Assembly (NCBI RefSeq): GCF_030652235.1
Contig: NZ_JAUSBA010000010.1
Coordinates: 62,001-126,000, forward strand
DNA length: 64,000 nt
Reading direction: 5' to 3'
Source: Cypionkella sp.
GTDB taxonomy: Bacteria; Pseudomonadota; Alphaproteobacteria; Rhodobacterales; Rhodobacteraceae
The position numbers were made by a program, and so were the translations under genes. The notes under the pieces were generated by a model. The model saw only the letters and a program-made list of their open reading frames with translations. It was not told the origin of the DNA and made no database searches. Positions 14,278 to 33,847 of this stretch are shown piece by piece; positions within the stretch are counted from its first letter, which is position 1, and every line of letters begins with the position of its first letter.

Positions 14278-16341
14278 ATGTCAGTTGTCATCTCCAGCGC
14301 TTCTGCTGCACCGGCTTCGGTGATCACTATAGCTGCCGGAAGCTCGGCTGCCACGATTCAAGCCGCAATCAACTCTGCCGCTATAGGTACGCATATTGTG
14401 CTGCAGCAGGGCACCTATACTTTCAACAAAACCGTGGTGTTGAACAAGGATGGCATCACGCTGGAAGGTCAGGGCAACGTCACCATCATCGCAGATAAAT
14501 CGCTGGCCGGGGCGCCTGCGCTGCAAATCGGCTCGGCTTTGTTTCGCGAGGCCGAAACCAACGCCACCCACCTGACAGAGGGTGTCAATCTTGGCGCAAC
14601 CTACCTGCACCTGACCAGCAGCACTGGCCTGAAAGTCGGCGACGTGCTTTGGATTGAACGCCCGAATGATGCCGCCCTGTTCACCGAGATCGGCGATACC
14701 CTGTGGCAGCAGGACAAGCCTTTGCGCACTGCGATGGTCACCGTCACAGCGGTGAACGGCAACACGGTCTTGCTGGACCGCCCGCTGCCCTTCGCCTTTG
14801 ACGCCGCAACCACAACGGTGGCTGTGGCGCAGGTGGTCGAAGATGTGACCGTACGCAACCTCACGTTCAAAGGAGCCTATGGCACCGCAGACCCCGGTAA
14901 CTTTAACAACATCAACAAAGCCGAAGATGGCGGCATGATGGTGCTGGTCAACAGCTCGGTGCACACCGTGATCGAGCATGTCGACATCGTCAATCCGGGC
15001 TCGAACGGCTTGGTTCTTGGCCGTTCGATTGATGCTGTTGTGGATGATGTGACCGTGACGGGTGCGCAGAACAAAGGCGACGGCGGTAACGGCTATGGGA
15101 TTTGGATCCGCGATGTCTACGACAGTACCTTCACCCATCTGCAAGCGGTGGATACCCGCCATGCCGTGCTGTTCGCCAGCTATACTTCGGCGGCGAACAA
15201 CACCATCGAAGTGGATTTCACCAACCGCGACATCAATTTTCACGGCGGGTTGGACCATGGCAATACGGTGATCGTACACAATTCGATCCGCACGACCGCC
15301 GAGCAAAGCTACATGGCGTCGGTCAGCTTTTTCAATTCCGGCACCAGCTATGGCGCGCCGACCGATGCCAATGCCAATGTGATCAAGTTTGAAAATGTCG
15401 TCGCAACCGTGCGGGCTGATATGGTGGCGGCGGTCGATACCGGGGCGCATATCAGCACATTGTCGGGCAATGACAGTGTGCAGGGCGGTGCAGGCAACGA
15501 CTGGGTTGATATGGGCACTGGCTCGGATCTGGTGTTGGCCTCGGCCGGAGAAGACACGATCAACGGCGGACAGGGCGTTGATCGGCTGGTGTTCGGGCTG
15601 CACAGCTCGCAGGTGCTGGTGACCACAATCGGCGGCCAAAGCGTTGTGCTCAGTGCGCTGGGACATACCTTTATCTCTGGGATCGAGGAGTTTCAGTTCA
15701 TCGACGGGGTCAAATCGGCCGCCAGCCAGCAGTTGACGGTGGTTTCGGCACCTGCAGCAGCGGCGCGTTCAACCCCGACCAGTGTAGATGTGTCTAGCGA
15801 TAGCATGGCGGATGCTTCGGTGCATGACGTGCGGATGACCGGGCGGGCTGATCTCGATTTTATCGGCAATGCCAACGGCAACCGGATCATCGGCAATGCT
15901 GGCGGCAACATCATCTTTGGTGAAGCTGGCAACGACCGCTTGCATGGTTATGGCGGCAACGACATTTTGAACGGTGGCGCGGGTTCTGATGTGCTGGGCG
16001 GTGGATTGGGCAGCGACACGCTGAACGGCGGCACGGGCAACAACACATTGGTGGGCGGCAAGGGCTCGGACGTTTTCATCGCCAGCGATGGTATCAACAC
16101 GGTGCGCGATTTTAGCATCGCTCAGGATGACACGCTGGTGTTCTTCGGCTTTGCCGAGGCCGATCTTGCAGACTCGCTAACACATTGGCTGGATGGCTCG
16201 GCGTCGAGCGCCGACGATTTCACGATTTCCACCCAGACGCGCAGTGGCGTGAGTTATTTGACCCTGACATCCGACCTTGGCGATTCGCTGATCATGGCCC
16301 ATGTCGATGCGACCGATCTGCGCGACTACCTTCTGGCATAA
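14278..16341 (+). CDS. Secreted right-handed beta-helix protein with RTX calcium-binding repeats
   Basis: 687 residues. The N-terminal half (about 15-390) is a pectate-lyase-like parallel beta-helix, opening with ATIQAAINSAAIGTHIVLQQGTYTF. It contains a conserved-looking RHAVLFASY ... DINFHGGLDHGNTV segment that may form the active groove. Two blocks of RTX nonapeptides follow, near 395-425 (GGAGNDWVD) and 550-605 (GGNDILNGGAGSDVLGGG, GGTGNNTLVGGKGSD). The C-terminus is hydrophobic, as expected for type I secretion. There is no Sec signal. The layout recalls the extracellular mannuronan epimerases of Azotobacter, but the DPHE motif is absent, so lyase, epimerase or a binding role all remain possible. 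It lies beside the alginate-type cluster and probably acts on its polymer (inference). Confidence 0.85.
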   Translation: MSVVISSASAAPASVITIAAGSSAATIQAAINSAAIGTHIVLQQGTYTFNKTVVLNKDGITLEGQGNVTIIADKSLAGAPALQIGSALFREAETNATHLTEGVNLGATYLHLTSSTGLKVGDVLWIERPNDAALFTEIGDTLWQQDKPLRTAMVTVTAVNGNTVLLDRPLPFAFDAATTTVAVAQVVEDVTVRNLTFKGAYGTADPGNFNNINKAEDGGMMVLVNSSVHTVIEHVDIVNPGSNGLVLGRSIDAVVDDVTVTGAQNKGDGGNGYGIWIRDVYDSTFTHLQAVDTRHAVLFASYTSAANNTIEVDFTNRDINFHGGLDHGNTVIVHNSIRTTAEQSYMASVSFFNSGTSYGAPTDANANVIKFENVVATVRADMVAAVDTGAHISTLSGNDSVQGGAGNDWVDMGTGSDLVLASAGEDTINGGQGVDRLVFGLHSSQVLVTTIGGQSVVLSALGHTFISGIEEFQFIDGVKSAASQQLTVVSAPAAAARSTPTSVDVSSDSMADASVHDVRMTGRADLDFIGNANGNRIIGNAGGNIIFGEAGNDRLHGYGGNDILNGGAGSDVLGGGLGSDTLNGGTGNNTLVGGKGSDVFIASDGINTVRDFSIAQDDTLVFFGFAEADLADSLTHWLDGSASSADDFTISTQTRSGVSYLTLTSDLGDSLIMAHVDATDLRDYLLA

Positions 16342-16402
16342 TCAACGGCATTTACCTGCAAGCGCTGTCGAAAATCTTTTGATATTCACGTGAGAATCTT
16401 AA

Positions 16403-16434
16403 GCATTTGCCTGACAATCATGTCAGGCAAATGC
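16403..16434. repeat. Perfect 14-bp inverted repeat
   Basis: GCATTTGCCTGACA, loop ATCA, TGTCAGGCAAATGC. No T-run follows, so it is not a standard terminator. Its right arm repeats the TGTCAGGCAAAT found upstream of the RTX gene at 14157, so it may be an operator, or an RNA stem at the end of the RTX transcript. Confidence 0.7.
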
Positions 16435-16520
16435 GCAGTTGCGAAACCCAACACGGCTGGCGAACGAAGCAACCGCCTGTTTTTTCGCCGATTCTACCGT
16501 TACGGCACGCGGGATTACGC

Positions 16521-16541
16521 TTAATGCTGCACTGCGTCATT
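16521..16541. promoter_or_regulatory. Repeat box upstream of the LuxR-type regulator
   Basis: TTAATGCTGCACTGC (16521-16535), then two variable bases and CATT. The identical 15 bases followed by the same spacing to CATT occur at 17593-17613 upstream of algD. Two copies in front of the regulator and of the operon it probably controls suggest a shared binding site. Confidence 0.5.
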
Positions 16542-16697
16542 GCGCTGTCGCAATCCAACGACATATATCGAAAGATGTAGATAACTGAGTGAAGCTGGTT
16601 CTGAGGCGGGGGGAGAGAGTTTACAATTCAACCTGTTCTCAGCGTCGTGAAGCCCGTTCTGGTGGCACGACGCATGAAAGCCTATCCCGAAGGAACG

Positions 16698-17387
16698 ATG
16701 AAATTGGCCATTGAAGATCAGACGATCCGCATAGTGGTCATCGACAAAGATCCCATGTTTGCGCTGGGCCTATGCTCTTTGCTGGAAAAGCGACCGCAGA
16801 TTCGTGCTTTGCCGCATGCCCCCTTCGATGTGCTTGGGTCACTTCAGGATCATCACACCAAAGATCAGATTGGGTCGCAGACAGATATTGTCTTGTTGGA
16901 CCCGCCGCAGTTTGACCTTGTCCCGTCAAGGTTGGTGCAGCGCTTGCGAGAACGGTTCGGAATGGCCAGCTTGATCAGCTACACAAATGATCTGTCGATG
17001 ACTCAGGCAAGATCTTGCCTTGCCGCAGGATTTCGTGGCGTGCTGCCACGTTCAATCGGGTTGGAGCAACTTGAGCAAGCCATCTCTGTGGTCCATGGCG
17101 GGGCGACCTGTATCGACCCGACCTTCGCAAACCTGTTCGAGTCAGCGCAATCCACCACATTAGTGTCCCGCCCGCGTGAACTGACCGAACGCGAGATCTA
17201 TGTCCTGAAATCGGTGGCCTTCGGCAAAAGCCTGAAAGAGATCGGGTTGGAGCTAGAACTGTCATCGAAAACCATCGAGACTTACAAAGCGCGCGGCAGC
17301 AGCAAATTGAACCTGCAAGGACGTCGCGCCATCGTTGAATATGCGATTCGCAATGGTTGGGTTCAGTCCGAAGAACGATTCGGCTGA
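16698..17387 (+). CDS. NarL/FixJ-type response regulator next to the alginate-type operon
   Basis: 229 residues. The N-terminal receiver-like domain (about 10-125) has acidic residues in VVIDKDP, a candidate phospho-acceptor Asp in IVLLDPPQFD and a Thr in ISYTN, but Arg replaces the usual conserved Lys (GVLPRSI), so phosphorylation control may be weak or absent. The C-terminal LuxR helix-turn-helix (about 158-222) is intact: LTEREIYVLKSVAFGKSLKEIGLELELSSKTIETYKARGSSKLN. I prefer the ATG at 16698 with AAGGA close upstream; a GTG at 16647 is possible. No sensor kinase is adjacent. Its position just before algD and the shared repeat box suggest it regulates the polysaccharide operon. Confidence 0.85.
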   Translation: MKLAIEDQTIRIVVIDKDPMFALGLCSLLEKRPQIRALPHAPFDVLGSLQDHHTKDQIGSQTDIVLLDPPQFDLVPSRLVQRLRERFGMASLISYTNDLSMTQARSCLAAGFRGVLPRSIGLEQLEQAISVVHGGATCIDPTFANLFESAQSTTLVSRPRELTEREIYVLKSVAFGKSLKEIGLELELSSKTIETYKARGSSKLNLQGRRAIVEYAIRNGWVQSEERFG

Positions 17388-17581
17388 CATTTAGAAAACA
17401 GCGAAAAATCTGCAGCACAGCGCATCCGAAAGGGTGCGCTATTCTCATGCCTACTTTTTCTGCAATGCAGCATAAACTTTTCGGCTTTTCCCTACGCTAG
17501 ACCTAAAGACGTAAGGCATTTGGTAAAAATTACCCACAAAATAAGGGTTTAGCCTGACTTTCCAAATCTCTTTGACCGTCC

Positions 17582-17613
17582 TTAATGTGCCGTTAATGCT
17601 GCACTGCCGCATT
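17582..17613. promoter_or_regulatory. Tandem TTAATG boxes upstream of algD
   Basis: TTAATGTGC at 17582-17590 is followed eleven bases later by TTAATGCTGCACTGC at 17593-17607. The second box is identical to the one at 16521. They lie about 45-70 bases before the algD ATG, inside the 260-base gap that must hold the operon promoter. The 17388-17650 gap has no other gene. Confidence 0.5.
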
Positions 17614-17650
17614 TTCGCCGCAGGAATGCCACTTCAGAAGGACGATTGAG

Positions 17651-18964
17651 ATGGCCAAAATTGTCGTATTCGGGATCGGATATGTGGGTGTGGTTTCGGC
17701 AGCTTGTCTGGCGAAAGACGGCCATGAGGTGATCGCGGTGGATGTTGATCCGGGCAAGGTCGCCTCGATCAATGCGGGGCTTTCCCCCATCGTGGAACAC
17801 GGTCTGCCAGAGCTGATCGCCGAGGTTTTCGCAGCTGGTAAGCTGACCGCCACGCTGGATGCCGCCGCCGCCGTGCGCGCCGCTGATGCGTCGTTTGTCT
17901 GCGTTGGCACGCCATCGGCCGAGGATGGTTCCATCGGGCTGAAATATGTCGAAAGCTGCTGCTGGGCGATTGCGTCGGCACTTCCGGGCAAAGACGGTTT
18001 CCATTCGGTCATCGTGCGTTCGACCATTGTGCCCGGCACCATGGAGAAGGTCTGCATCCCGATCCTTGAGGAATACTCGGGCATGGAAGCTGGCGTCGGT
18101 TTCGGCGTCGGCTACTACCCCGAGTTCCTGCGCGAAAGCACTGCCATTCAGGATTACTACGATCCCGGCCTGATCGTATTTGGTGCGCTGGAACAGAAAA
18201 CCGCCGACTTCCTGTCCATGCTGAACAAAGACCTGCCCTGCGATGTGAATGTCGTCGACGTGCGCTCGGCCGAGATGATCAAATACACTTCGAACGCTTG
18301 GCGTGCGGTGAAGGTCACCTTCGCCAATGAGATTGGTAACATCGCCAAAGCCTGTGGCCTCGATGGCCAAGCCGTGATGAAGATCCTCTGCTCGGATCAC
18401 AAAGTCTCGATGAGCCCGTATTTCATGCGTCCCGGCTTTGCGTTTGGCGGCTCGTGCCTGCCGAAAGACGTGCGCGCCCTCCGCTCCATCGCTGCCGATA
18501 TTCAGGTCGCCTCGCCGTTGCTGGATGCGGTGCTTGTCGCCAATGCCGAACAGATTAACCGCGCCGAAGCGATGGTGATGGCGTCCGGCTCCACCTCGGT
18601 CGGTCTTGTTGGCATCAGCTTCAAACCCGGCACTGATGACATGCGCGAAAGCCCCCTCGCCGAACTCGCCGCCCGTCTGATCGACCAAGGCATGACGCTG
18701 AACGTCTATGACCCCTTCGTGCATGAAGCCTACGCCAATGACATGAGCGCGGCAGGCCGTGGCAATGATTACAACATTGATCTGAAGGATCGTCTGGTGC
18801 CGACGATCAAGGAACTGCTGGCGAAATCTGACATCGTGCTTGTCGGCAACAAATACGACGACACTCTGGAAGAACTGAACGCCTCGACTCATCCGGTGAT
18901 CGACCTGACGCGGATCAAGGCGGGCAAACGCTCGGGCGGCACCTATCAGGGCATTTGTTGGTAA
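17651..18964 (+). CDS. algD: GDP-mannose 6-dehydrogenase
   Basis: 437-residue cytoplasmic enzyme that oxidises GDP-mannose twice with NAD to GDP-mannuronate, the committed step of alginate synthesis. The Rossmann start FGIGYVGVVSAACL has the GXGXXG motif at 8-13. The SPIVEHGLPELI and YYPEFLRESTAIQDY stretches and the catalytic Cys270 in FGGSCLPKDVRAL are in place. The protein ends in GICW, as I recall for Pseudomonas AlgD, which favours AlgD over UDP-glucose dehydrogenase. AGAAGGA precedes the ATG. It is the first gene of the long alginate-type operon, and its stop overlaps the alg8 ATG (TAATG). Confidence 0.93.
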   Translation: MAKIVVFGIGYVGVVSAACLAKDGHEVIAVDVDPGKVASINAGLSPIVEHGLPELIAEVFAAGKLTATLDAAAAVRAADASFVCVGTPSAEDGSIGLKYVESCCWAIASALPGKDGFHSVIVRSTIVPGTMEKVCIPILEEYSGMEAGVGFGVGYYPEFLRESTAIQDYYDPGLIVFGALEQKTADFLSMLNKDLPCDVNVVDVRSAEMIKYTSNAWRAVKVTFANEIGNIAKACGLDGQAVMKILCSDHKVSMSPYFMRPGFAFGGSCLPKDVRALRSIAADIQVASPLLDAVLVANAEQINRAEAMVMASGSTSVGLVGISFKPGTDDMRESPLAELAARLIDQGMTLNVYDPFVHEAYANDMSAAGRGNDYNIDLKDRLVPTIKELLAKSDIVLVGNKYDDTLEELNASTHPVIDLTRIKAGKRSGGTYQGICW

Positions 18965-20442
18965 TGATGATGTTGGGCCATATCGCCTTTATCGCTGCGA
19001 TGGTTGGGCTTGGCCTAAGCCTGCCGTTCCACGCGATGGGCGATGTGGGCAGCGCCTTGGTGGTGGTCGGGGTGATTGGGCTTTGGCGCTACACTTGGGC
19101 CGCGATCAACTTTTCGCGGGCGGCGCTGTTCCTGAAATGGGTGTATCCGCAGCGTAAGGCGCGGGCGATGGCAGCCTATGCGGCCTTGCCCACGCCAGCC
19201 CATGCGTATTTTCTGGTGACCAGCTACAAGATCGAACCCGAAGTTACCACGCGGGTCTATCAAGCCCTGTTCCGCGCGGCGGCTGCCTCGGCTGGCGGGG
19301 CCACCGTGGTGTGCTCGGTGGTCGATACCGCCGATGCCCGCCTGATCCGCAATATCTTTGACCGGATGGCGGTCGATACGTCGAATACCCGCCTGATGGT
19401 CGACCAAATCGCAGGCACCGGCAAACGCGATGCTTTAGCGCGTTCACTTCGTCTGATCGCAGGTGAGGCCCCGACCCGCCGCGACATCGTGCTGTTTGTC
19501 GATGGCGACAGTTGCGTGCCGGAAGATATTGTGGCCGCCACAGCGCCTTTCTTCACCAACCCCGATATGGGTGCTGTGACGACGGATGAAGAAGTCGAAA
19601 TCCGCGCCACCGATATGCCGCTGTTCCGCGATTGGTTCATGCTGCGCTTCAACCAACGGCAAGTGATGATGTCGTCGATGGGGCTGTCGGACCGCGTGCT
19701 GACCCTTACCGGGCGGATGAGCGTGGTGCGGGCCGATCTTGCCACCAACGCGGGCTTCATCAATCAGGTGCAAAGCGATTTCATCGACCATTGGCGCTTG
19801 GGCCGGGTGAATTTCCTGACCGGCGACGACAAATCGACTTGGTTCTGGCTGCTGAAGAACGGCTACAAGATGGGCTACCTGCCCGACGTGGCCTCGCTGT
19901 CGATGGAAAGCCAACCGCGCCCCGGTTTTGTGGATTCCGCCCTGACTCTGATGATGCGTTGGTTCGGCAACATGCTGCGCACCAATGGCCGGGCTTTGTC
20001 TTTGTCGCCCAACAGCATCGGCTGGTTTACCTGGTGGTCGATCCTTGATCAGCGTGTCGGCATCTGGACGACGCTGGCAGGCCCGATCTCCGTCCTGTTC
20101 GGAGCGGTGTTTATTGAGCCGTTAGCGCTACCCATCTACATCGCCTGGATCATGTTCACCCGCTACACCTATTGCTGGATTCTGGCGACGGTGCGGATGC
20201 AGCCCTTTCCGATCACCTATCCGTTCTTGCTGTACTTCAGCCAGATCACCGGGGCGGCCGTCAAAAGCTTCGTGCTGTTCCGCTTGGATCGTCAACGCTG
20301 GACGCGGCAATCCGCTCGCAAAGCCCGCGCCATTACCCTGCCGTTCGGCCAACGCCTGCAAGGCTGGTCGTCGACGTTCTCCCACTCCCTCGCCCTCGGA
20401 TGGCTGACTTTGGGTGTGATTCTTCTGTCTGGCATTGTCTGA
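18964..20442 (+). CDS. alg8: Alginate-type polymerase, family 2 glycosyltransferase
   Basis: 492-residue inner-membrane processive glycosyltransferase that would polymerise mannuronate from GDP-mannuronate. Two N-terminal membrane segments (about 5-45) are followed by the cytoplasmic GT domain. That domain has VLFVDGDSCVPEDI (DXD), TTDEEVEIR, TGDDKSTWFWLLKNGYKMGYLPDV and the MMRWFGNMLRTNGRAL segment, equivalent to the QXXRW region. Four or more C-terminal membrane helices follow. The match to Alg8 is better than to BcsA or hyaluronan synthase. I chose the ATG at 18964, inside the algD stop (TAATG); a TTG at 18955 would add three residues. It works with Alg44, the next gene. Confidence 0.92.
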   Translation: MMMLGHIAFIAAMVGLGLSLPFHAMGDVGSALVVVGVIGLWRYTWAAINFSRAALFLKWVYPQRKARAMAAYAALPTPAHAYFLVTSYKIEPEVTTRVYQALFRAAAASAGGATVVCSVVDTADARLIRNIFDRMAVDTSNTRLMVDQIAGTGKRDALARSLRLIAGEAPTRRDIVLFVDGDSCVPEDIVAATAPFFTNPDMGAVTTDEEVEIRATDMPLFRDWFMLRFNQRQVMMSSMGLSDRVLTLTGRMSVVRADLATNAGFINQVQSDFIDHWRLGRVNFLTGDDKSTWFWLLKNGYKMGYLPDVASLSMESQPRPGFVDSALTLMMRWFGNMLRTNGRALSLSPNSIGWFTWWSILDQRVGIWTTLAGPISVLFGAVFIEPLALPIYIAWIMFTRYTYCWILATVRMQPFPITYPFLLYFSQITGAAVKSFVLFRLDRQRWTRQSARKARAITLPFGQRLQGWSSTFSHSLALGWLTLGVILLSGIV

Positions 20443-20462
20443 ATTCGCGAAGGAATACGAAA

Positions 20463-21497
20463 ATGGACATCAACACCGCTGAGAGCCAAACCATCGGCCA
20501 CCTGCCCAATCTGCCCGTGCAAGGCGAGCATCCCTTGCTGGATATTCCCTTTGTCGTGGGTATCGACGGGCGGCAGTTCAAAGGCGAACGGCTGTCTCTG
20601 GTCGCTGCCGAAATCACTGGCCTGATGGACCCGGCCTTGGACGGGGCCACGCGCCTGATGCGCTTCATGTTCCCGTTCAAAGGCTTCAGCGTCACGCTGG
20701 AAGTCTTGGGGCAAGTGCAATCGCTGGATCGCGGCAACGGTCACGCCACGGTCAATTTTGTTGACCCCGCAGGCGAGCATCTGCCGCAACTGCGCCATCT
20801 GATCAATTCCTACATCGCGGGCGATCTGGTGGCTTTGGGTGAGGTGATCGGCGTCGCTCCCTCGATCCCATCGCCTGCCAACCGCGCCACCGCGCCGAAG
20901 GCTAAGGGCCTGACCTTTAGCCGGGTCTTTGGCAGCGCTGGGCTGGCACTCGCCACTCTGGCTTTGGTCGCAGCGGTCGGCACCTTGGCCTATAACCGGA
21001 TCTTCACTCTGCCGCTCGCCGCCCCCGGTCTGGTTGCGCAAGACGGCATGACGCTAACGGCGACCGCGGGCGGCCAAGTCGATTACGTCAACCTCGCCGC
21101 CGCCAAGGGCGAAGTCGCTTTCACGATCCGTGCCACCTCTGGCGAGATGCTGTCGATTGCGATGCCTTGCGACTGCATAGCAACAGCCCTTGCCGCAACT
21201 GTCGGGGCTACCGTCAACGCGGGCGAGCCGATGCTGAACGTGCACACCGCCGATGCGCCGATGGTGCTGACTGCAACCGTACCTGCCACCGATGTGCTGA
21301 CGCTGGCCTTTGCCGATCACGTCAAGGTGCAGTTCGGCGACGGCAGCACGATCAACGCCGCTGTCGATCCCGCCAGCCTGCGCGCCGAGGCCACCAATAT
21401 GGGCCTGCCCGTGCGGCTGATCCCGGCCACCCCTTTGCAAGCCGAGCAGCTGGGCCATTTGGCCAAGCTGACCATCATCAAGAAGCCTTGGTTTTAA
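20463..21497 (+). CDS. alg44: Alg44-like co-polymerase with PilZ-like domain
   Basis: 344 residues. The N-terminal PilZ-like domain (about 20-125) is cytoplasmic. One membrane helix (156-177, VFGSAGLALATLALVAAVGTLA) leads to a periplasmic HlyD/MFP-like domain (about 185-344) with the PCDCIATALAATVGATVNAGEPML hairpin typical of Alg44. In Pseudomonas, Alg44 binds c-di-GMP through RXXXR and DXSXXG motifs. Here the first region reads GEHPLLD with no Arg pair, and the second reads AAEITG (48-53). The ligand residues are therefore not conserved, and polymer synthesis may not need c-di-GMP at this site. GAAGGA precedes the ATG at 20463. It sits 20 bases after alg8. Confidence 0.88.
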   Translation: MDINTAESQTIGHLPNLPVQGEHPLLDIPFVVGIDGRQFKGERLSLVAAEITGLMDPALDGATRLMRFMFPFKGFSVTLEVLGQVQSLDRGNGHATVNFVDPAGEHLPQLRHLINSYIAGDLVALGEVIGVAPSIPSPANRATAPKAKGLTFSRVFGSAGLALATLALVAAVGTLAYNRIFTLPLAAPGLVAQDGMTLTATAGGQVDYVNLAAAKGEVAFTIRATSGEMLSIAMPCDCIATALAATVGATVNAGEPMLNVHTADAPMVLTATVPATDVLTLAFADHVKVQFGDGSTINAAVDPASLRAEATNMGLPVRLIPATPLQAEQLGHLAKLTIIKKPWF

Positions 21498-21565
21498 GCC
21501 AACACGCTACCCCCGTCACTACCTTTCAGATTTCCCCTTCGGGCAATGACCCAGCGGAGCGCGCC

Positions 21566-23038: not shown

Positions 23039-23039
23039 G

Positions 23040-24545: not shown

Positions 24546-24549
24546 CTTT

Positions 24550-25992: not shown

Positions 25993-26004
25993 AGGAGGAT
26001 CGCC

Positions 26005-27087
26005 ATGCAGCGCTTCTATCGGATATCTCGCTACTTCTTGCCGGTGATGTTTTTCGGCTACGTCCCCTTCGCCAATCTGGCGGTCTATGAACAACCCGGC
26101 GGCAAGCTGGCGGCGTTTGACGTGGCCGCCCTGCGCGGCACCGTCACCCACAGCTTTGACACGCTGTACAAAACCGCGATGCCGCACCGCGAGCCTTCGA
26201 TCGGCGTCATGGGTGCGGCCCGCTATCTGCTGATCGGCGAAGGCCGCAAGGGCGTCGTCGTGGGTCGCGACGGTTGGCTGTTCACCTCGGAAGAAACCCG
26301 ACCTTTGCCTGCAAGCCTGTCGCCTTCCGTCGCCAAAATCGCCGAGATTCGTGATACGCTCGCCGCCCATGGCACCAAGCTGATCGTAGTGCCGCTGCCT
26401 GCCAAGGTCGATGTGCAATCGGCTGAAGCCTCAGCGCCTGAACTCTCAACGGAGATGGCGGGCTTTTATGCTGAACTTCTGGCCAAGCTGAACGCCGCCC
26501 AGATTAAGGCCGTCGACGCCCGTACGCCGCTGGTCGAACTCGTGAAAACCAAACCCGCGTTCTTCGCCACCGATACCCACTGGACGCTGGACGGTGCCGC
26601 CACCGTGGCCGCTGCCGTGGCAAAATCCGGCCTGATCCCGCTGGGCACGGCCCAGATGACCCGTACCGAAGCACCCAAAACCGAATTCGCGGGCGATCTG
26701 GTGTCCTACGTCACCACCGAAGGCATCGCCCCAATGCTGGGTTTGGATCGTGAAGACGCCAATCCCTATGTCGTCGCAGCCCCCGCTGACACCTCTGACA
26801 TCTTCGCCGCTGCCCAAGTCGATGTCGTGCTGATCGGCACCTCTTACAGCGCCAACCCGCATTGGAGCTTTGCTGAAGCCCTCAAGCTTGACCTGTACCA
26901 AGACGTGCTGAACGCGGCTGAACAGGGCCTTGGCCCGATCAAGCCGATGGACAAATACCTCGCCTCCGACAGCTTCCGCGATGCGCCGCCGAAAGTGGTG
27001 ATTTGGGAAGTTCCGCTGCGCTATCTGACCGATCCGAAACTTTGGGACGGTCATAAAATCGGACAAGAGGTCGCAAGTGCAGATTAA
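26005..27087 (+). CDS. algJ: AlgJ-like SGNH-type O-acetyltransferase
   Basis: 360 residues with an uncleaved-looking N-terminal signal anchor (MQRFYRISRYFLPVMFFGYVPFANLAVYE), so the domain faces the periplasm. The AlgX/AlgJ hydrolase-like domain has the catalytic Asp190 and His192 in TDTHWTLDGA and the nucleophile Ser280 in IGTSYSANPHWSF. As I recall, Pseudomonas AlgJ has the same Asp/His positions. GDGW-type wording (VVGRDGWLFTSEE) is also typical. It probably receives acetyl from AlgI. GGAGGA precedes the ATG. The stop overlaps the next gene by eleven bases. Confidence 0.9.
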   Translation: MQRFYRISRYFLPVMFFGYVPFANLAVYEQPGGKLAAFDVAALRGTVTHSFDTLYKTAMPHREPSIGVMGAARYLLIGEGRKGVVVGRDGWLFTSEETRPLPASLSPSVAKIAEIRDTLAAHGTKLIVVPLPAKVDVQSAEASAPELSTEMAGFYAELLAKLNAAQIKAVDARTPLVELVKTKPAFFATDTHWTLDGAATVAAAVAKSGLIPLGTAQMTRTEAPKTEFAGDLVSYVTTEGIAPMLGLDREDANPYVVAAPADTSDIFAAAQVDVVLIGTSYSANPHWSFAEALKLDLYQDVLNAAEQGLGPIKPMDKYLASDSFRDAPPKVVIWEVPLRYLTDPKLWDGHKIGQEVASAD

Positions 27088-27889
27088 ATCTCTGATCATC
27101 GCCAGCGTGATTCTGACCAGCTTTATGGCGGCTCCGGTGCGGGTGCAGGCAGAAGGCCGAGTGGTGCCGCCAACCGTGGTGTCAAAGGTCTATCTCAGCA
27201 AAGAAGAAAAAGCCGCGAAACTGGCCGAAAGGTTAGCGCTGCAAAAGGCCGCGCGTTTGGCCGCCAAACCTCCGGTTGACCCAGTGGTGTCACGCCTGAA
27301 AACGCTGCACAAACGCATGGTCGCGAAGGAAGAACTGACCGCCAGCGAAATGCAGGAACTGGCGGATTCCGGGGATGGCCTCGCGGCGTTCTATTACGCC
27401 CGCAAGCTGGAGGAATCCGGCAGACCTAGCGTGCTGCCCACGGCGGTGCATTACTATGCGATGGCGTCCTATCTGGGCCGCGAATTCGCCATGAACCGCA
27501 TGATCGCGCTGATGAAATCGCCCGAAGTCACCCTGTCCGACAGCCAAATCAAGAACGGCAAGGATGCGCTGGTCAAGCTGGCGCGGTCTGGCACACCCGC
27601 CGCCGCCCTTGGCCTTGCCGATATGTACGCCATCGGTCAACCATTTCCCCAAGACACCGCCGAGTCGCGCAAATGGCTGATGCAGGCCGCCAAGGCTGGC
27701 GATGCCAATGCGGCGCAAAAACTGGCGCAAGCTGCGATCATGCCGCAAGACGGCAGCGCCCCCGATGTGCTCGCTGCCCGCGCAGCACTTGCGCTGATGC
27801 TCGCCTCGAATGAACCCGGAAAAGTCGCGATGGCGCAGACCCTGCTCGCCCGCCTTGACGCCACAAACCCCTTGGAGGTTTCCCAATGA
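27077..27889 (+). CDS. Exported Sel1-repeat protein within the alginate-type operon
   Basis: 270 residues with a signal peptide (MQIKSLIIASVILTSFMAAPVRVQA). A charged, probably coiled helix follows (LSKEEKAAKLAERLALQKAARLAAK). Helical Sel1/TPR-like repeats come next (DSGDGLAAFYYARKLEESG, GTPAAALGLADMYAIGQPFPQDTAESRKWLMQAAKAGDANAAQKLAQAA). Sel1 repeats also build AlgK, the periplasmic scaffold of alginate export, so this could be a second, smaller AlgK-type scaffold. It has no lipobox. It overlaps algJ by 11 bases and algX by 4, so it is part of the same translational chain. I know no exact counterpart in the Pseudomonas operon. Confidence 0.8.
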   Translation: MQIKSLIIASVILTSFMAAPVRVQAEGRVVPPTVVSKVYLSKEEKAAKLAERLALQKAARLAAKPPVDPVVSRLKTLHKRMVAKEELTASEMQELADSGDGLAAFYYARKLEESGRPSVLPTAVHYYAMASYLGREFAMNRMIALMKSPEVTLSDSQIKNGKDALVKLARSGTPAAALGLADMYAIGQPFPQDTAESRKWLMQAAKAGDANAAQKLAQAAIMPQDGSAPDVLAARAALALMLASNEPGKVAMAQTLLARLDATNPLEVSQ

Positions 27890-29217
27890 ACGCAGCATTC
27901 CAGCTTGCGGCGGCGCTGGGCCTAGCCCTGAATGCCGCGCCCGTCCTGGCGCAAAGCGCATCAAACTTCGATTGCTCGGCCTATGAGTTCAACACCGTTC
28001 TGCCCGCGATTGAAGGCAAAGATGGCGTGTTCTTTCGCACTTTTGCCGATCTGCGGATGCAGCACCCGCTGGACGCGCGCACCGTGCATATGATGGGACA
28101 GCTGGCGAAGGTGCTGAAAGAAAACGGCACCACGCTGGTCTATGTGACCATTCCGACCAAGTCGCAGGTGATGCCGCAATACCTGCCCGACCACGCCGCA
28201 GACTATGGCTTTCAGCCCGAAGTGGCGAATGCGATCTATACCGATTTCATCACCCGCTTGAACAAAGCGGGCATCGTGGCGCCCGATATGATGACCGCCC
28301 TGCGCAACAACAAAGGCGGCGAGCGCGCCTTGTTCGGCGACGACTTCCACTGGACCTCGCAAGGCGCGCGGCTGGGCGCTCAGGCGATTGCCGAACAGAT
28401 CAAGGCCGACCCCGCCTATGCCGATCTGCCGAAGCAAACCTTCGTGACCACCGCGATTGCGCCCGAAGTCGCCTTCTCGGGGATGCGCCGCACCCTGCAA
28501 GGCTATTGCGCGAAATCGCTGCCGCCGACCGAGACGATGGCCTATAAAACCGAAGCCGTTGCCAGCACCGATGCAGCAGCCAGCGGCCTGGATATCTTCG
28601 CCACCCCCAGCGAGGTTCAGCCTGCAGTTCTGATCGGCACCTCTTATTCTGACAGCCCGATCAACAACTTCGCGGGCTTTCTGGCGGAATATTCGCAACT
28701 GGAGATCGTTAACTACGCGATCACCGGCGGCAACCAGTTCGGCTCGATGACTTCTTACATGACCTCGGATGAATTCAAAGCGCAGCGCCCGCGTTTTCTG
28801 ATCTGGGAAAACCCGATCTACAACAATCTGGCACAATATGGCGCAGCGCCGATGGAAGAGTTGATCGCCGCTGCGGGCAATACCTGCACCACCGCTTTGC
28901 CCGTCACCAAGCTGGATGCCAACACGGTCGAGGCCACTCTGGACGGTTTCAAAGTCGGTGCTGATGATGCGATCTTTGCCGATTTCGGCGGAGAAGGTCC
29001 GCGCATCGCCAATTTTAGCATCGAAGGTGCCGACGGATTAATCCGTCACTCAAAAGTTGAGCGCAGCCAAAGATTGCGCTCAACTGGAAATTTCTACCTT
29101 GGGTTGTCGGCTTTCACGATGCCGAATATCAAGAAGGTGACGGTGCATTTCGATCGCCCCGTCAGTGAATCGACCACCTTGAATTTCTGCGCGAATACCA
29201 AAGGAGACGCATCATGA
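27886..29217 (+). CDS. algX: AlgX-like alginate O-acetyltransferase with C-terminal carbohydrate-binding module
   Basis: 443 residues, exported (MNAAFQLAAALGLALNAAPVLAQ). The SGNH-type domain (about 30-335) has Asp153 and His155 in GDDFHWTSQGARLG, Ser253 in IGTSYSDSPINNF and FLIWENPIYNNL near its end. The C-terminal 105 residues (VEATLDGFKVGADDAIFADF ... VTVHFDRPVSESTTLNFC) look like the AlgX carbohydrate-binding module, which separates it from AlgJ. AlgX performs the terminal acetyl transfer to mannuronate in the periplasm and links to AlgK. The catalytic residues appear intact, so acetylation is the best-preserved modification in this cluster. Four-base overlaps occur on both sides. Confidence 0.9.
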   Translation: MNAAFQLAAALGLALNAAPVLAQSASNFDCSAYEFNTVLPAIEGKDGVFFRTFADLRMQHPLDARTVHMMGQLAKVLKENGTTLVYVTIPTKSQVMPQYLPDHAADYGFQPEVANAIYTDFITRLNKAGIVAPDMMTALRNNKGGERALFGDDFHWTSQGARLGAQAIAEQIKADPAYADLPKQTFVTTAIAPEVAFSGMRRTLQGYCAKSLPPTETMAYKTEAVASTDAAASGLDIFATPSEVQPAVLIGTSYSDSPINNFAGFLAEYSQLEIVNYAITGGNQFGSMTSYMTSDEFKAQRPRFLIWENPIYNNLAQYGAAPMEELIAAAGNTCTTALPVTKLDANTVEATLDGFKVGADDAIFADFGGEGPRIANFSIEGADGLIRHSKVERSQRLRSTGNFYLGLSAFTMPNIKKVTVHFDRPVSESTTLNFCANTKGDAS

Positions 29218-29852
29218 CGAAGAACAGCAGCTGGTTGATTGCCCTATGTACAGGGCTTTGCGGCATCTATGCCACGGCGGGGTTGGCTCAGGATGGTGGG
29301 CTCTATGAAGACGTGCCCGACCCCAGTGCCAGCTTTGTGCGAGTCGTTGCGGCGGCCCCGACCAATGCGGTGATCGACACCAAAACCTTCGATCAACTGG
29401 ATGGCGGGATTTCCGGCTACGTTGTTGTCGCCAAACCCGGCGAGATCAAATTGGTGACCGGGGTGGATGACGCCACGGTGAACGTCGAGGCGGGCAAGTA
29501 TTACTCCTATGTCGTCGGCGCTGATGGCACCAAAACCTTGGTGCCGGAAGATATCACCTCAAATCCCGCCCAAGCCGTGATCAGTTTCTTCAACCTCAGT
29601 GATCTGCCGAAGGTTGATTTGTATGTGCCCGCCGCCAAAGCGGTGGCCCTGCCGGGTGTGCCGATGAATGGCGCAGCCAATGTGGCGCTGAAAGCCCCGC
29701 TGACCTTGGACTTTGAGGTTCGCGATGGCGACAAGGTCCTCGCCACCCTGCCTGCTGTTGATCTGCAACGGCGCGGCGGTGTGGCGATCGTGCTGCGCGG
29801 CTCTGCAGGCAACTACACTGTGGCGGGCTCAAACTCGACGCTTGCCAACTAA
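29214..29852 (+). CDS. algF: AlgF-like alginate acetylation adaptor
   Basis: 212 residues with a signal peptide ending at GLAQDGG. GLYEDVPDPSASFVRVVAA matches the characteristic start of AlgF, and two beta-domains follow (IKLVTGVDDATVNVEAGKYYSYVV and LKAPLTLDFEVRDGDKVLATLPAVDLQRRGGVAIVLRG). AlgF is periplasmic and needed for acetylation together with AlgI, AlgJ and AlgX, probably as an adaptor without its own catalytic triad. The start overlaps the algX stop by four bases. A 57-base gap follows before the large scaffold gene. Confidence 0.88.
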   Translation: MTKNSSWLIALCTGLCGIYATAGLAQDGGLYEDVPDPSASFVRVVAAAPTNAVIDTKTFDQLDGGISGYVVVAKPGEIKLVTGVDDATVNVEAGKYYSYVVGADGTKTLVPEDITSNPAQAVISFFNLSDLPKVDLYVPAAKAVALPGVPMNGAANVALKAPLTLDFEVRDGDKVLATLPAVDLQRRGGVAIVLRGSAGNYTVAGSNSTLAN

Positions 29853-29909
29853 GCACAATCGCCGCGCAGACACCCTCTGCGCGGCGGTACATCGGCAAAA
29901 GGATACACC

Positions 29910-32678
29910 ATGACACGCGCCGCAGCCTTGCTTTCCCGCCCGTTCTTGCCGCTTTGCGTGGCCGCTCTGGCTGGCCTTCCAGCCTTTGCACAAACCGCGA
30001 GCCCGCAAACCGTCGCGGTAAACTTCGAGCCGCCCCGGATCGAGGTGGAAAAGATCTGCGCGCCGAGCACGCCCGACGAACAACTCGCCGCGCAATGGAC
30101 AGCTTGGGATGGCAAAGTGCTGCCCGAGATGGCCCCCGATCTGATTCAGCGTGATCTGCGCCGTCTGATGGATGCCGATGCGATCCGTTGGTTTCACACC
30201 ATCGAAAAAGCCCACGCCCTGATGCCCTCGGTTGATCCGCAATTCGACGCGAACAAAGCCCTGTTGGCACGGGTGGAACTGCTGATCGCGGCGGGCCGTC
30301 TGAAAGAATTGACCAACCAACGCCTTGTCGATCAGCTGATGGCGACGGAAAACGGTGGTTCACCCCGCTTGCAAAACATTCTGGCCGATTACCTGATGAA
30401 CGGCACCGGCATCGCGGTGGATAAAGAAAAAGGCCTGCAAATGCTGGTTGCCGCCGGCTATGGCGGCAACGCCGATGCATTGCTGAAGATCGTCGAGTTG
30501 CAGGAAAAAGGCACCAAAATTCCCGGCTGGGATGTGCCCTCGGATATCGCCGTCACCATGGCCTTCGGGGCTTTGGTCGGCAAGATGGACCCGATGATCT
30601 GCGACCGCGTCGCCCGCATCGCCCGCGAATATATGAACGGCACCATCGTCACCCGTGATGTCGGTCTGGCTGAAAAATGGTTCCGCTTTGCTGCTGATAT
30701 GGGCGATGGCGTCTCGGCTTGGAAAGTTGCCGAGATGCATATGCGCTCGGAAGATCTGGTGAAATCGAACGACACTCTGATCGCCTATATGACCAAAGCC
30801 GCCGATGCTGGCCTGCCCTATGCCCAAGTGGCGCTGGGCCGTCTGTATGAACAAGGTGCTTTGGTCGGCAAGAAAGACATCGAACACGCCCGCGCGCTGT
30901 ACGAGCAAGCCGCCAGCTTCGGTGACCGTGCGGGCCTGTTGCGCAACGCGCTGTTCCTGCAATCCGAAGCGAAAGTCGATGGCGCTTATCAGCCCGCCTA
31001 TCGCGCCGCTTTGGAACAATTCGCCAAACGCGCCGATGCTCCGGCTTGGATTTTCATCGCTCTGGGTGATTTTGAAATCGCCGACAAAGGCCGCTGGGGC
31101 GGTGAATCTGCCGCTGTCGCTTACTACGAAAAGGCCGAGGCGATGGGCGATGCAGGTGCCACCAAACGCCTGACACCGATCCGGTTCCGTTATGCTGACA
31201 CGCCGAAACAGTTCTACAAAGTCATCGACGCGGTGATCGACACCGTCCACACTGGCGGTGAGATTGACCCGATGAACGGCCTGAAAGACGCCTTCAGTTG
31301 CCGTGCGCCACAAGCACCACAGCGCACAGAGGCGCAGTATTGGGAAGGCATTAGCGCGGCCACTGGCACCAAAACCGTCGAATTCACGCCGACCGAGCTG
31401 TTGGCCCTGATCGCTAATCCCAACCCCCAAGACATTGCCCGCTTGCAAACCCAGGCGCTTTACGGTCGGCCGACGGCCATCGCACAATATATGGAGGTGC
31501 TGACGCGCAGCAACGCAGCACCCGAGGAGATCGCCTTCTGGGAGTCTTATGCCAAACGTTTTGAAGGCGTCACCGCCGCACGCGGACGCTTGGAGAACAA
31601 ATTTGCCGAAATCGGCCAGAACCGAAGCGATCCCACAACCATGCTGCGCGCCGCGATTGCCGAAGGTGACACTTCCGCCGAAGTTGATTTGGCCGAGATC
31701 CTGCTCAAGCAAGACCCGCAGAAAAACGCAGCCGCTGCGCTTACGGCAGTGGAACCTATGGCCGAGATGGGCAATGGTGCCGCATTGCGGTTGCTGCCGC
31801 AGCTTGACCCCAAACGCTTTCCCGATCTGAAAACCGTGTACGCCAGCTACGCGGATGTCATCGAAGCCCGCGGCGACTTTGACGCCCTTGTGCTCGCATT
31901 GCCGTTCCAGCCCGATCTCGGGCGTCGGGTCGATTACATGCGCCGCGCCACCACCGCCACCGATTGCAGCTTTGACGAAATCAAAACCCTTGTCGATGCG
32001 ATGGGTCAGGTGGGCGATCAGGCGGCCTTTATGAAATGGGTGGATGTGGCCGAGTTCCTCAGCGAAAATGACAGCTGGCGGCTGGTGCAACTGGGCGATC
32101 TGCTGCGCCATTACGGTGACGAGTCGATGGCAACCGCCCAACTCGCCTATTATCAGCGCGGCTATGAAGGCGGCAACACCACCGCCATTCACCGCCTGCT
32201 CGATGTCTACGGTGACGATGGTGCCCCGCAGTTCAATGCATCGACGGCGGCCGATCTTTACGTCGCTTTGGTTGAACGCAGCGCGCCAAAAGACATTCCC
32301 CGCGCGCTTTCCCGACTGGCGGTTGCCTCGCAGCCGATCCAAGACAATGCCTATGCTCGGCTTGACGTGCCAAAACTCTACCGCACCGCTGCCGAAGCCG
32401 GCAATCCGGCAGGGATGCGCGAATATGGCAAGCTGTTGCAAGTCAGCGCGAAATCTACCGCTGAACTGGAGGCCTCGACTCAATGGATCTCCAAAGCCGC
32501 CGAGGCAGGCGATGTCCCCGCCATGCTGACGTATGCCGATGCGCTGGCCTTTGGTCTGGGCGTGCCGGCCTCGCGGGAAGATGCGCTGGTCTGGCTGCAA
32601 AAAGCCGCAGACGCAGGCAATACCGATGCCACCGCCAAAGTGCGCAGCCTGACGTTGCAACCGGAGGTTAGCCAATGA
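29910..32678 (+). CDS. algK: Large AlgK-like Sel1/TPR scaffold protein
   Basis: 922 residues, exported by a Sec signal (PFLPLCVAALAGLPAFAQ). The mature protein is almost entirely helical Sel1/TPR-like repeats, for example GTGIAVDKEKGLQMLVAAGYGGNADALLKI, ALGRLYEQGALVGKKDIEHARALYEQAASFGD and YADALAFGLGVPASREDALVWLQKAADAGNTDATAK. Pseudomonas AlgK is a lipoprotein of about 475 residues that binds the AlgE porin and AlgX. This one is nearly twice as long and has no lipobox Cys at the cleavage site, so its outer-membrane attachment must differ. Assignment to AlgK rests on repeat type and context; call it AlgK-like. It overlaps the next gene by four bases. Confidence 0.78.
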   Translation: MTRAAALLSRPFLPLCVAALAGLPAFAQTASPQTVAVNFEPPRIEVEKICAPSTPDEQLAAQWTAWDGKVLPEMAPDLIQRDLRRLMDADAIRWFHTIEKAHALMPSVDPQFDANKALLARVELLIAAGRLKELTNQRLVDQLMATENGGSPRLQNILADYLMNGTGIAVDKEKGLQMLVAAGYGGNADALLKIVELQEKGTKIPGWDVPSDIAVTMAFGALVGKMDPMICDRVARIAREYMNGTIVTRDVGLAEKWFRFAADMGDGVSAWKVAEMHMRSEDLVKSNDTLIAYMTKAADAGLPYAQVALGRLYEQGALVGKKDIEHARALYEQAASFGDRAGLLRNALFLQSEAKVDGAYQPAYRAALEQFAKRADAPAWIFIALGDFEIADKGRWGGESAAVAYYEKAEAMGDAGATKRLTPIRFRYADTPKQFYKVIDAVIDTVHTGGEIDPMNGLKDAFSCRAPQAPQRTEAQYWEGISAATGTKTVEFTPTELLALIANPNPQDIARLQTQALYGRPTAIAQYMEVLTRSNAAPEEIAFWESYAKRFEGVTAARGRLENKFAEIGQNRSDPTTMLRAAIAEGDTSAEVDLAEILLKQDPQKNAAAALTAVEPMAEMGNGAALRLLPQLDPKRFPDLKTVYASYADVIEARGDFDALVLALPFQPDLGRRVDYMRRATTATDCSFDEIKTLVDAMGQVGDQAAFMKWVDVAEFLSENDSWRLVQLGDLLRHYGDESMATAQLAYYQRGYEGGNTTAIHRLLDVYGDDGAPQFNASTAADLYVALVERSAPKDIPRALSRLAVASQPIQDNAYARLDVPKLYRTAAEAGNPAGMREYGKLLQVSAKSTAELEASTQWISKAAEAGDVPAMLTYADALAFGLGVPASREDALVWLQKAADAGNTDATAKVRSLTLQPEVSQ

Positions 32679-33847
32679 GCGCCCACATCACTCGCCTAAT
32701 TTTAGCCATCAGCCTCGGCCTTGGCACGCAATCCGCCATCGCCGAGACCACGCCCAAGGCCGAACCAGAGCCTTTCGCCTGCTTCGATCCGGTCCCCCCG
32801 GTGACGGAACTTGCCATCCCCAGCCGCTACAAGGATGACAGCAAGAACCGTTCTGATTTCGACGCTGAAGCCAACGCCGCGGTTGAGGCTGCGCTGAATC
32901 CGGTCGATGATTTCATCAACGCTTTGGTCAAAAATGCCAACGCAGCCCTGCAGATCACCACAGCACCCGAGGTTGACCCAAAGGCTCCGGTTGATCCCGC
33001 AGCCGCAGCCGCGCCCGAAACCTCGCCCGATCAGGCCCAAAAAACCCTGATCGCCGATTGCGTGGTCGATCGCATCCATGACTGGGCCGCCGTCGATGCT
33101 TTGGCCGATATGAAAACCCAAGGTGCACAACTCTCGGTGCCCAGCCGCATTGGTGGCATCGCCATGGCCTATGCCCAAGTGCGCGGCCTTGCCACCCAAG
33201 ACGACCGCCAGCCTGCGATTGAAGCTTGGCTGACGGCCCGGATGCAAGCCAGCATGCTGTTCTTCGACACCGAAGCCCCGCCGAAGTCGCGCGAAAACAA
33301 CCTGCGCGCTTGGGCTGCTTTGGCTGCGGCGCAGGTCGGTTTGCTGCAAAACGACGCGGTAATGACCACTTGGGCCGCAGACTCTGTCAAACTGGTGCTC
33401 TGCACCGCCACCCCCGAAGGCGCTTTGCCGAATGAAATGTGGCGCGGCAAACTGGCGCTGCACTACCAAATCCACGCCGTGGGTCCCTTGGTCGTCGCCA
33501 ACGCCTTGCTGCAACCGACGCATCCAGATCTGCTGGCCACCTGCGACAACGCCCTGCTGCGCGTCGTCCGCTTCACCTTGAACGCCGTCGAAGACCCCAA
33601 ACTGGTCGAGGCGATCACCGACAAACCGCAAAAGTTCGACTCCGCCACCGAGATGAAACGTGCCTTTCAATTCGCGTGGCTCGCCCCGCTGGAAACCTTG
33701 GTGCAAGAACCCGACTTCACCACCTTTGCGGCGAAGTTTGAGCTACTGAGCAACTCTAAAATCGGCGGCAAGCAAAGCCTGCTTTGGCCCGCGCTGGACG
33801 TAAAAGACCCCGCTGTGACCGAAGAAGCGCCCGCCGCGACGCCATAA
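32675..33847 (+). CDS. algL: AlgL-like protein (PL5 fold) lacking the catalytic histidine
   Basis: 390 residues with a signal peptide (MSAHITRLILAISLGLGTQSAIA). The region RENNLRAWAALAAAQVGL ... GALPNEMWRGKLALHYQIHAVGPLVVANAL aligns with the PL5 alginate lyase core (NNHSYW ... LPNELKRRQRALAYHNY). Asn209, Arg257 and Tyr264 match the lyase residues at one constant offset, but the catalytic His of NNH is Leu210 here. An Ala/Pro insertion (about 97-120) is unusual. It is therefore probably not an active lyase, and could act as a structural or polymer-binding member of the periplasmic complex. It is last in the operon and is followed by a hairpin terminator. Confidence 0.78.
   Translation: MSAHITRLILAISLGLGTQSAIAETTPKAEPEPFACFDPVPPVTELAIPSRYKDDSKNRSDFDAEANAAVEAALNPVDDFINALVKNANAALQITTAPEVDPKAPVDPAAAAAPETSPDQAQKTLIADCVVDRIHDWAAVDALADMKTQGAQLSVPSRIGGIAMAYAQVRGLATQDDRQPAIEAWLTARMQASMLFFDTEAPPKSRENNLRAWAALAAAQVGLLQNDAVMTTWAADSVKLVLCTATPEGALPNEMWRGKLALHYQIHAVGPLVVANALLQPTHPDLLATCDNALLRVVRFTLNAVEDPKLVEAITDKPQKFDSATEMKRAFQFAWLAPLETLVQEPDFTTFAAKFELLSNSKIGGKQSLLWPALDVKDPAVTEEAPAATP

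Follow-up and report, generated by a model that had tools for sequence, protein, structure and literature searches.

The 64,000-nucleotide stretch of Cypionkella sp. DNA analyzed here (contig NZ_JAUSBA010000010.1, positions 62,001 to 126,000; hereafter the window) carries a twelve-gene operon of alginate-type genes, and on balance we favor the reading that this operon is derived from an alginate system, probably makes glucuronan, and works without direct control by cyclic di-GMP (c-di-GMP). We infer its enzyme substrates, polymer, regulation, and export route from gene content, gene order, and the loss or change of motifs throughout a clade of such operons, together with a predicted PilZ fold. 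A first-pass annotation had called the locus an alginate-like system; this stands for the family of the machinery but is doubtful for the polymer, as motifs of AlgD, AlgA, and AlgG are changed clade-wide and one species of the clade makes glucuronan, so that "alginate" is probably the wrong name for the product.

The core of the operon spans 17651-33847 on the plus strand in the order D-8-44-A-G-I-J-Sel1-X-F-Sel1-L, neighboring genes overlapping or lying no more than about 70 bases apart; gene starts were picked from the translations. Reference operons were located through the AlgG equivalog NF038177, which passed its threshold in 11 of the 398 genomes searched in the phylum, and five of these 11 (family f194) served as references. 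Profiles built from the window's gene families recover D, 8, 44, A, G, I, J, X, F, and L in all five references, along with a Sel1 protein standing where K would be, and since every one of these genes is recovered each time, the homology holds gene by gene and beyond chance, in agreement with the earlier description of divergent alginate-type machinery in an alphaproteobacterium. Canonical Alg8 sequences reach 573-594 bits with the Alg8 profile of the window family; the window Alg8 matched no cellulose or poly-N-acetylglucosamine (PNAG) synthase in NCBIfam at E <= 0.001, giving only a weak NodC match, and phmmer found nothing for it in the PDB at E <= 0.01. Both the pair of Alg8 polymerase and Alg44 co-polymerase that characterizes alginate systems and the O-acetylation module AlgI/J/X/F, with its catalytic motifs, are present. 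Pfam and NCBIfam assign the core proteins to the nucleotide-sugar dehydrogenase, family 2 glycosyltransferase (GT2), ManC/AlgA-type, AlgG-like beta-helix, MBOAT, AlgF, Sel1, and polysaccharide lyase family 5 (PL5) classes, and two SGNH proteins to the ALGX family; the Alg44-like protein, for which Pfam gives no match at E <= 0.001, was assigned through weak PDB matches, profiles, and fold.

Relatives of this Alg8 (E <= 1e-30) occur in 23 of 385 genomes sampled from the class and in 11 of a set of 81 relatives, the window's own genome being counted in both. A scan of named genomes confirmed at least 572 relatives, and among the best 80, which were kept, all are alphaproteobacteria by title and the closest is Cypionkella psychrotolerans, with 99% Alg8 identity. 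In a quick tree of 116 Alg8 sequences, built without cellulose or PNAG synthases, 77 rows with changed motifs, the window among them, form one clade (Shimodaira-Hasegawa-like approximate likelihood ratio test support of 100) that adjoins a motif-keeping sister group and lies apart from the references; because these rows form one clade, the motif changes happened once or in close succession and do not count as independent observations. Clade counts include one duplicate (L043 and L063 are identical in sequence), and a single contig supplied both L046 and L047. Loci outside the clade that carry few of the operon genes (among L033-L042 and L049-L062) are in the tree and left out of the motif counts, while L168 is excluded from all groups. 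A gene such as algI, algJ, algF, algD, or algA is called absent when it is absent from the fetched stretch, not from the genome.

Of the 76 clade loci mapped, 65 have D-8-44-A-G in this order on a single strand, and the operon order recurs in both Rhodobacterales and Rhizobiales; the departure from the known gene order that the first-pass annotation had pointed out, with algA in fourth position, is conserved in relatives. Of the 11 exceptions, five are cut by contig ends (L064, L072, L088, L095, L107), two have split frames (L048, L096), three have neither algD nor algA in the stretch (L117, L118, L121), and one has A and G swapped (L128). The longer order D-8-44-A-G-I-J-Sel1-X-F-Sel1 is seen in 35 of the 76 loci and a shorter one, D-8-44-A-G-X-Sel1-L, in 22. 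The stretches of L117, L118, and L121 are about 21 kb long, and since algD and algA are not in them, the precursor must there come from elsewhere in the genome. In Loktanella salsilacus, the complete operon sits on a plasmid, and the public annotation covers only parts of it.

Glucose and mannose are epimers at C-2. In PaAlgD, whose residue numbering is used here following PMC4794789, the mannose 2''-hydroxyl is 2.9 A away from His217. The excerpt of that report describes this position as clearly responsible for substrate specificity, with Leu common at its equivalent in UDP-glucose dehydrogenases and Arg in UDP-N-acetylmannosamine (UDP-ManNAc) dehydrogenases (PMC4794789). The position is Arg in all 73 clade sequences, including the window's, and His in all 15 sequences of the comparison group; the His217 signature for reading GDP-mannose is missing from the window. 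Eight features, each kept in all five references, were read from alignments against those references, and among them His217 and Tyr257 behave alike, being kept in none of the 73 clade sequences, five of five references, and all 10 sister sequences. (L050 belongs to the 15-row AlgD/AlgA comparison group and not to the eight-feature counts, and differs at several AlgA positions; the reverse membership applies to L140.) Of the other active-site or nucleotide-side residues, R122, T124, E157, K210, N214, F262, C268, and K271 are kept throughout the clade (73/73) and A263 in 72 of 73, with Y256 and R259 variable in clade and comparison group alike. Eight group-specific AlgD positions were flagged, four of them fixed in 73/73; two of the eight, His217 and Leu126, are among the five positions that the PMC4794789 excerpt gives as diagnostic of GDP-mannose dehydrogenases (GMDs), an overlap with a post hoc hypergeometric P of 0.003 over 436 positions. 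Another diagnostic residue, Cys213, is Ser in all 73 clade sequences and varies in the comparison group; Ala263 and Arg122 are retained. Because the His217 position holds Arg and not Leu, GDP-glucose is our guess for the substrate of this AlgD.

The same Arg could instead point to some other C-2-modified uronan, for example a polymer of N-acetylmannosaminuronate, since the residue found in 73 of 73 sequences matches the UDP-ManNAc dehydrogenases, in which, going by the same excerpt, Arg is invariant (PMC4794789). We consider such a product improbable: the GMD-specific Ala263 and Arg122 of that excerpt are kept, no amino-sugar gene was identified by Pfam or NCBIfam in the twelve-gene core, and the one clade species of known chemistry makes a glucuronate polymer. 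Outside the clade, L051 (genome G237) shows both the Arg and the Phe replacement in its AlgD, possibly through a second, independent event, and its genome has AlgE matches.

AlgA has changed in a similarly uniform way. The window protein reads WASG for WNSG and PTERLVFER for SIDYAVMEK; the WNSG Asn is kept in none of 71 clade sequences (Ala in 70, Ser in one) and in all 10 sister sequences, the Phe that follows it is Ser in 70 and Ala in one of the 71, and the Asp of SIDYAVMEK is Glu in 71 of 71. By analogy with GlmU, we take this Asn to contact the sugar and this Asp the metal. The general nucleotidyltransferase catalytic residues are kept in the clade. The isomerase motif survives in none of 70 clade sequences and in nine of 10 sister sequences, and the window AlgA, its isomerase metal motif gone, does not have the full motif set of a bifunctional isomerase and guanylyltransferase. 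The uniform replacements in AlgD and AlgA suggest a new substrate rather than decay, and the AlgG and isomerase motifs vary freely within the clade, as expected for lost functions.

The AlgG motif D.HD is kept in none of 71 clade sequences and all 11 sister sequences, and the window shows no DPHDRS; an alignment-free search of the AlgG frames found D.HD in one of 71 clade members (L110, elsewhere in the frame) and in all 10 sister loci. The AlgL His of NNHxxW is kept in none of 28 clade and eight of nine sister sequences, with L140 and L136 the sister exceptions to the isomerase and AlgL rules. In Alg44, RxxxR is kept in 0/75 and [DN]xSxxG in 0/76 clade sequences, each being kept in 11/11 of the sister group, and the window protein does not carry the motifs of a c-di-GMP receptor. 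Its structural model (mean predicted local distance difference test score, pLDDT, 75.5; predicted template modeling score 0.42) matches the PilZ domain of P. aeruginosa Alg44 (TM-score about 0.8, normalized by target length); the PilZ fold is therefore predicted to be kept with its ligand motifs gone.

Loss of the epimerase and isomerase motifs would, taken alone, also fit an operon making acetylated polymannuronate, that is, alginate without guluronate, with AlgG serving a structural role only and mannose-6-phosphate supplied by another isomerase. All the synthesis genes are alginate homologues, the transferase residues of AlgA and the guanosine-side Ala263 of AlgD (72/73) are kept, and AlgL is a PL5 enzyme, all of which this alternative accommodates. 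We nevertheless rate it as unlikely, though it is the rival we take most seriously, since it leaves unexplained the replacement of His217 by Arg at the contact to the mannose 2-hydroxyl in 73 of 73 sequences, the almost uniform replacements in AlgL and in the sugar pocket of AlgA, and the glucuronan phenotype described for Rhizobium rosettiformans in the excerpt of PMC10180729. That the operon is simply decaying and makes nothing, as the loss of several catalytic motifs might indicate, seems to us very improbable: the reading frames are intact in the window, 65 of 76 loci retain the gene order, the AlgD catalytic residues are invariant (73/73), several of the new residues are themselves fixed, and the AlgX residues are kept in 45 of 45 loci where algI, algJ, or algF was found.

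AlgX provides a consistency check within the clade. Its DxHW motif is kept in those 45 clade loci that have algI, algJ, or algF in the stretch and in none of the 24 in which none of these was found, and the latter fall into two groups of the tree, three Martelella and 21 Rhodobacterales rows. It seems that AlgX persists after its activity is gone, which would be expected of a protein required for secretion. In Pseudomonas, according to the excerpt of PMC9734138, secretion continues after deletion of algI, algJ, or algF.

Glucuronan enters through one species. Peteryoungia rosettiformans DSM26376 secretes a beta-1,4-glucuronan acetylated at C-2/C-3, and the excerpt of the 2023 report states that the genes and loci for glucuronan biosynthesis were unknown (PMC10180729). 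The genome of R. rosettiformans W3 (L082) falls within the clade and carries the operon, so that a species documented in that excerpt as a producer has the operon with a single synthase of Alg8 type. One Alg8-type synthase was found in W3 at E <= 0.001, and the operon contains the single MBOAT match of that genome at E <= 0.01. W3 has nine PF13641 matches, the best being the operon Alg8 and the next three a cellulose synthase, a GT2 (L195), and an HpnI-like protein. The plasmid clusters of Rhizobium etli 8C-3 and R. grahamii have His217, DPHDRS, and the Alg44 RxxxR intact, and as they keep these motifs, the two types of cluster are distinct within Rhizobium; the R. etli AlgA is without the isomerase motif, and the R. 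grahamii stretch yielded no AlgA. Among the openly licensed publications listed, judged mostly by their titles, none assigns genes to glucuronan or describes such an alphaproteobacterial alginate locus.

Several points weigh against a glucuronan product. An Arg in place of His217 marks UDP-ManNAc dehydrogenases and not the UDP-glucose enzymes, which have Leu. The sequence changes lie on one branch and so count as a single event. Loss of the isomerase motif is not specific, as it occurs with His217, the AlgG motif, and the Alg44 RxxxR kept in L140 (Labrenzia alba) and in the R. etli 8C-3 cluster (L202), so that by itself it does not mean a new sugar. The link to glucuronan comes from one species, the sole clade member of known chemistry, and we presume from name and origin that DSM26376 and W3 represent a single type strain. 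That species also has a cellulose synthase, another GT2 (L195), and five weaker, unclassified GT2 matches. Sinorhizobium, to which the glucuronan producer S. meliloti M5N1CS belongs, is neither among the 14 plasmid records matched nor among the best 80 of at least 572 named loci. Finally, Salipiger mucosus has the operon (L108), and in the excerpt of the paper on its exopolysaccharide the words uronic, glucuronic, and mannuronic do not occur (PMC2953402).

If the operon does make glucuronan, AlgA, acting as a nucleotidyltransferase only, and AlgD would together yield a nucleotide-linked uronate distinct from GDP-mannuronate, glucuronate being the likeliest. The precursor may be GDP-glucuronate, the GDP form being suggested because the guanosine-side residues are kept. 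Alg8 and Alg44 would polymerize the uronate and push it into the periplasm, with c-di-GMP not acting on Alg44, and AlgI, AlgJ, AlgX, and AlgF would acetylate the polymer. The two Sel1 proteins, the presumably inactive AlgG, and AlgX may form the periplasmic path, AlgL would remove stray polymer, and the product, probably an acetylated beta-1,4-glucuronan, would exit through some outer-membrane pore other than AlgE. We also put forward, as a proposal that is possible rather than likely, that the operon represents the first locus identified for bacterial beta-1,4-glucuronan and that alginate machinery was converted once, in an ancestor of the Rhodobacterales/Rhizobiales clade, from GDP-mannuronate to GDP-glucuronate through changes in the sugar pocket of AlgA and at the AlgD residue that reads C-2; AlgG would then have become a pseudo-enzyme, Alg44 have been freed of c-di-GMP, and AlgX have become a non-catalytic scaffold in at least two sublineages after loss of algI, algJ, and algF.

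The only canonical alginate gene without a counterpart in the window operon is algE. The AlgE porin (PF13372) has no match at E <= 10 in the window's genome and none above cut-off in seven window-type genomes, two of which are less than 90% complete; one match at E 0.02 among the seven contained three stops. AlgE is present in all five references and, among other alphaproteobacteria tested, in G095, G136, and G237 and not in G523, G015, G380, and G233, so its absence is not specific to the clade. Loss of AlgE as part of the sugar switch was ruled out, since G523, an alphaproteobacterium with intact motifs, is also without it. Clustering the open frames near the operon, with four clusters read closely, yielded no replacement porin, which may lie elsewhere; apart from the regulator, short Sel1, RTX, and lyase families, the larger clusters are ABC-type ATPases, neighbors common to close rhizobia, and antisense frames. 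The long Sel1 protein has the AlgK structure 7ula among its PDB matches (E 1.4e-4), and Pfam shows only Sel1 in it, with no match to a barrel profile; the short Sel1-like protein has no Pfam match at E <= 0.001. Between algF and the long Sel1 gene lies a hairpin of 11 pairs, nine of them G-C (29860-29886, listed on the minus strand), a possible processing or attenuation site.

All the alg genes that the first-pass annotation had named on one strand, with overlaps and short gaps, are present on the plus strand (Table 1). That annotation made no mention of the absence of AlgE or of the loss of the PilZ and AlgG motifs. The locus as it was drawn there, from 14278 to 33847, was too wide, the core beginning only after a gene for an RTX protein with a beta-helix domain and a gene for a NarL/LuxR-type regulator. 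Of the 77 clade loci, 45 have a member of the regulator family close to the operon, and only two of these 45 (L112 and L114) belong to the 24 without algI, algJ, and algF. Homologues of the RTX protein lie near the operon, in either orientation, in 10 of 77. The model of its N-terminal beta-helix (mean pLDDT 82.1) resembles phage and capsule depolymerases and polysaccharide lyases, making the protein a candidate enzyme acting on the exported polymer; an AlgE-type epimerase is not favored, the epimerase AlgE4 ranking 47th. A divergent PF14099 lyase homologue about 2.8 kb upstream of alg8 is found in nine of 77 clade loci, all without algI, algJ, and algF (L114, 7445-8374; L073, 5901-6848; and others). 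We dropped it as a marker of glucuronan lyase, as it had no PL20 match in the PDB by sequence and was found in only four of eight genomes, being absent from the window's genome and from L103 of the group without algI, algJ, and algF. Further upstream in the window (10109-13882, minus strand), a Ser/Thr protein kinase gene, a gene without a Pfam match, and a gene for an OmpA/YceI protein are transcribed away from the operon.

Table 1. Genes of the twelve-gene core and of its upstream flank, with window coordinates.
Feature	Coordinates	Strand	Remarks
RTX protein with beta-helix domain	14278-16341	+	separate from core
NarL/LuxR-type regulator	16647-17387	+	upstream of core
algD-like nucleoside diphosphate-sugar dehydrogenase	17651-18964	+	catalytic residues kept; His217 to Arg, Tyr257 to Phe, Leu126 to Val
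alg8-like GT2 polymerase	18964-20442	+	Pfam, window-family profile, Alg8 tree
alg44-like co-polymerase	20463-21497	+	predicted PilZ fold and membrane-fusion domain; RxxxR and DxSxxG gone
algA-like nucleotidyltransferase	21566-23038	+	transferase catalytic residues kept; sugar pocket altered; isomerase metal motif gone
algG-like right-handed beta-helix protein	23040-24545	+	DPHDRS epimerase motif absent
algI-like MBOAT O-acetyltransferase	24550-25992	+	sole MBOAT match of the genome at E <= 0.001
algJ-like SGNH acetyltransferase	26005-27087	+	DTHW and GTSYS motifs intact
short Sel1-like protein	27077-27889	+	recognized by eye and through relatives; possible AlgK counterpart
algX-like acetyltransferase	27886-29217	+	DxHW intact
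algF	29214-29852	+	PF11182 above cut-off
long Sel1-repeat protein, 922 aa	29910-32678	+	AlgK-like by repeat type
algL-like PL5 lyase	32675-33847	+	NNHxxW to NNLRAW; Arg and Tyr kept

Should the glucuronan reading be correct, it would assign genes to a polyuronide of applied interest whose locus the excerpt of a 2023 report gave as unknown (PMC10180729), and would show how a synthase-dependent exopolysaccharide system can switch its monomer. Annotation by homology, such as "alginate lyase family protein" and "alginate O-acetyltransferase AlgF" in L. salsilacus, may then name the wrong polymer in Rhodobacterales and Rhizobiales. The clade also offers natural experiments on alginate biology, with AlgG lacking the epimerase motif, AlgX lacking catalytic residues, and Alg44 lacking c-di-GMP motifs.

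Set beside the alginate operon of Pseudomonas and Azotobacter, taken in its known gene order and as seen in the five references, the window operon has a homologue for each of D, 8, 44, A, G, I, J, X, F, and L, Sel1 proteins where K would stand, Alg8 next to Alg44, and intact acetylation motifs, but it is without AlgE, has AlgA fourth, and has lost or altered the His217, epimerase, isomerase, PilZ, and AlgL active-site motifs. The alginate-type clusters of Microvirga, Chthonobacter, and Devosia psychrophila, which fall in the sister group of the clade, and the plasmid clusters of R. etli and R. grahamii have 8-44 and G in common with the window, and mostly D and A; unlike the window, they keep His217, the AlgG D.HD (DPHDRS or a variant), and the PilZ motifs where these were read, and algI and algJ were not seen in the stretches mapped. 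Rearranged alginate operons without algKE have been described from environmental, deep-sea bacteria, and the excerpt of that work mentions no alphaproteobacterial alginate operon and no change of substrate or motif, in contrast to the window (Bundalovic-Torma et al. 2020, PMC7112194). As for the glucuronans, the operon was not seen in S. meliloti M5N1CS, and we found no genetic test; on the side of agreement, R. rosettiformans carries the operon, and the polymer of Peteryoungia rosettiformans is acetylated at C-2/C-3, a modification of which such acetylation machinery would be capable.

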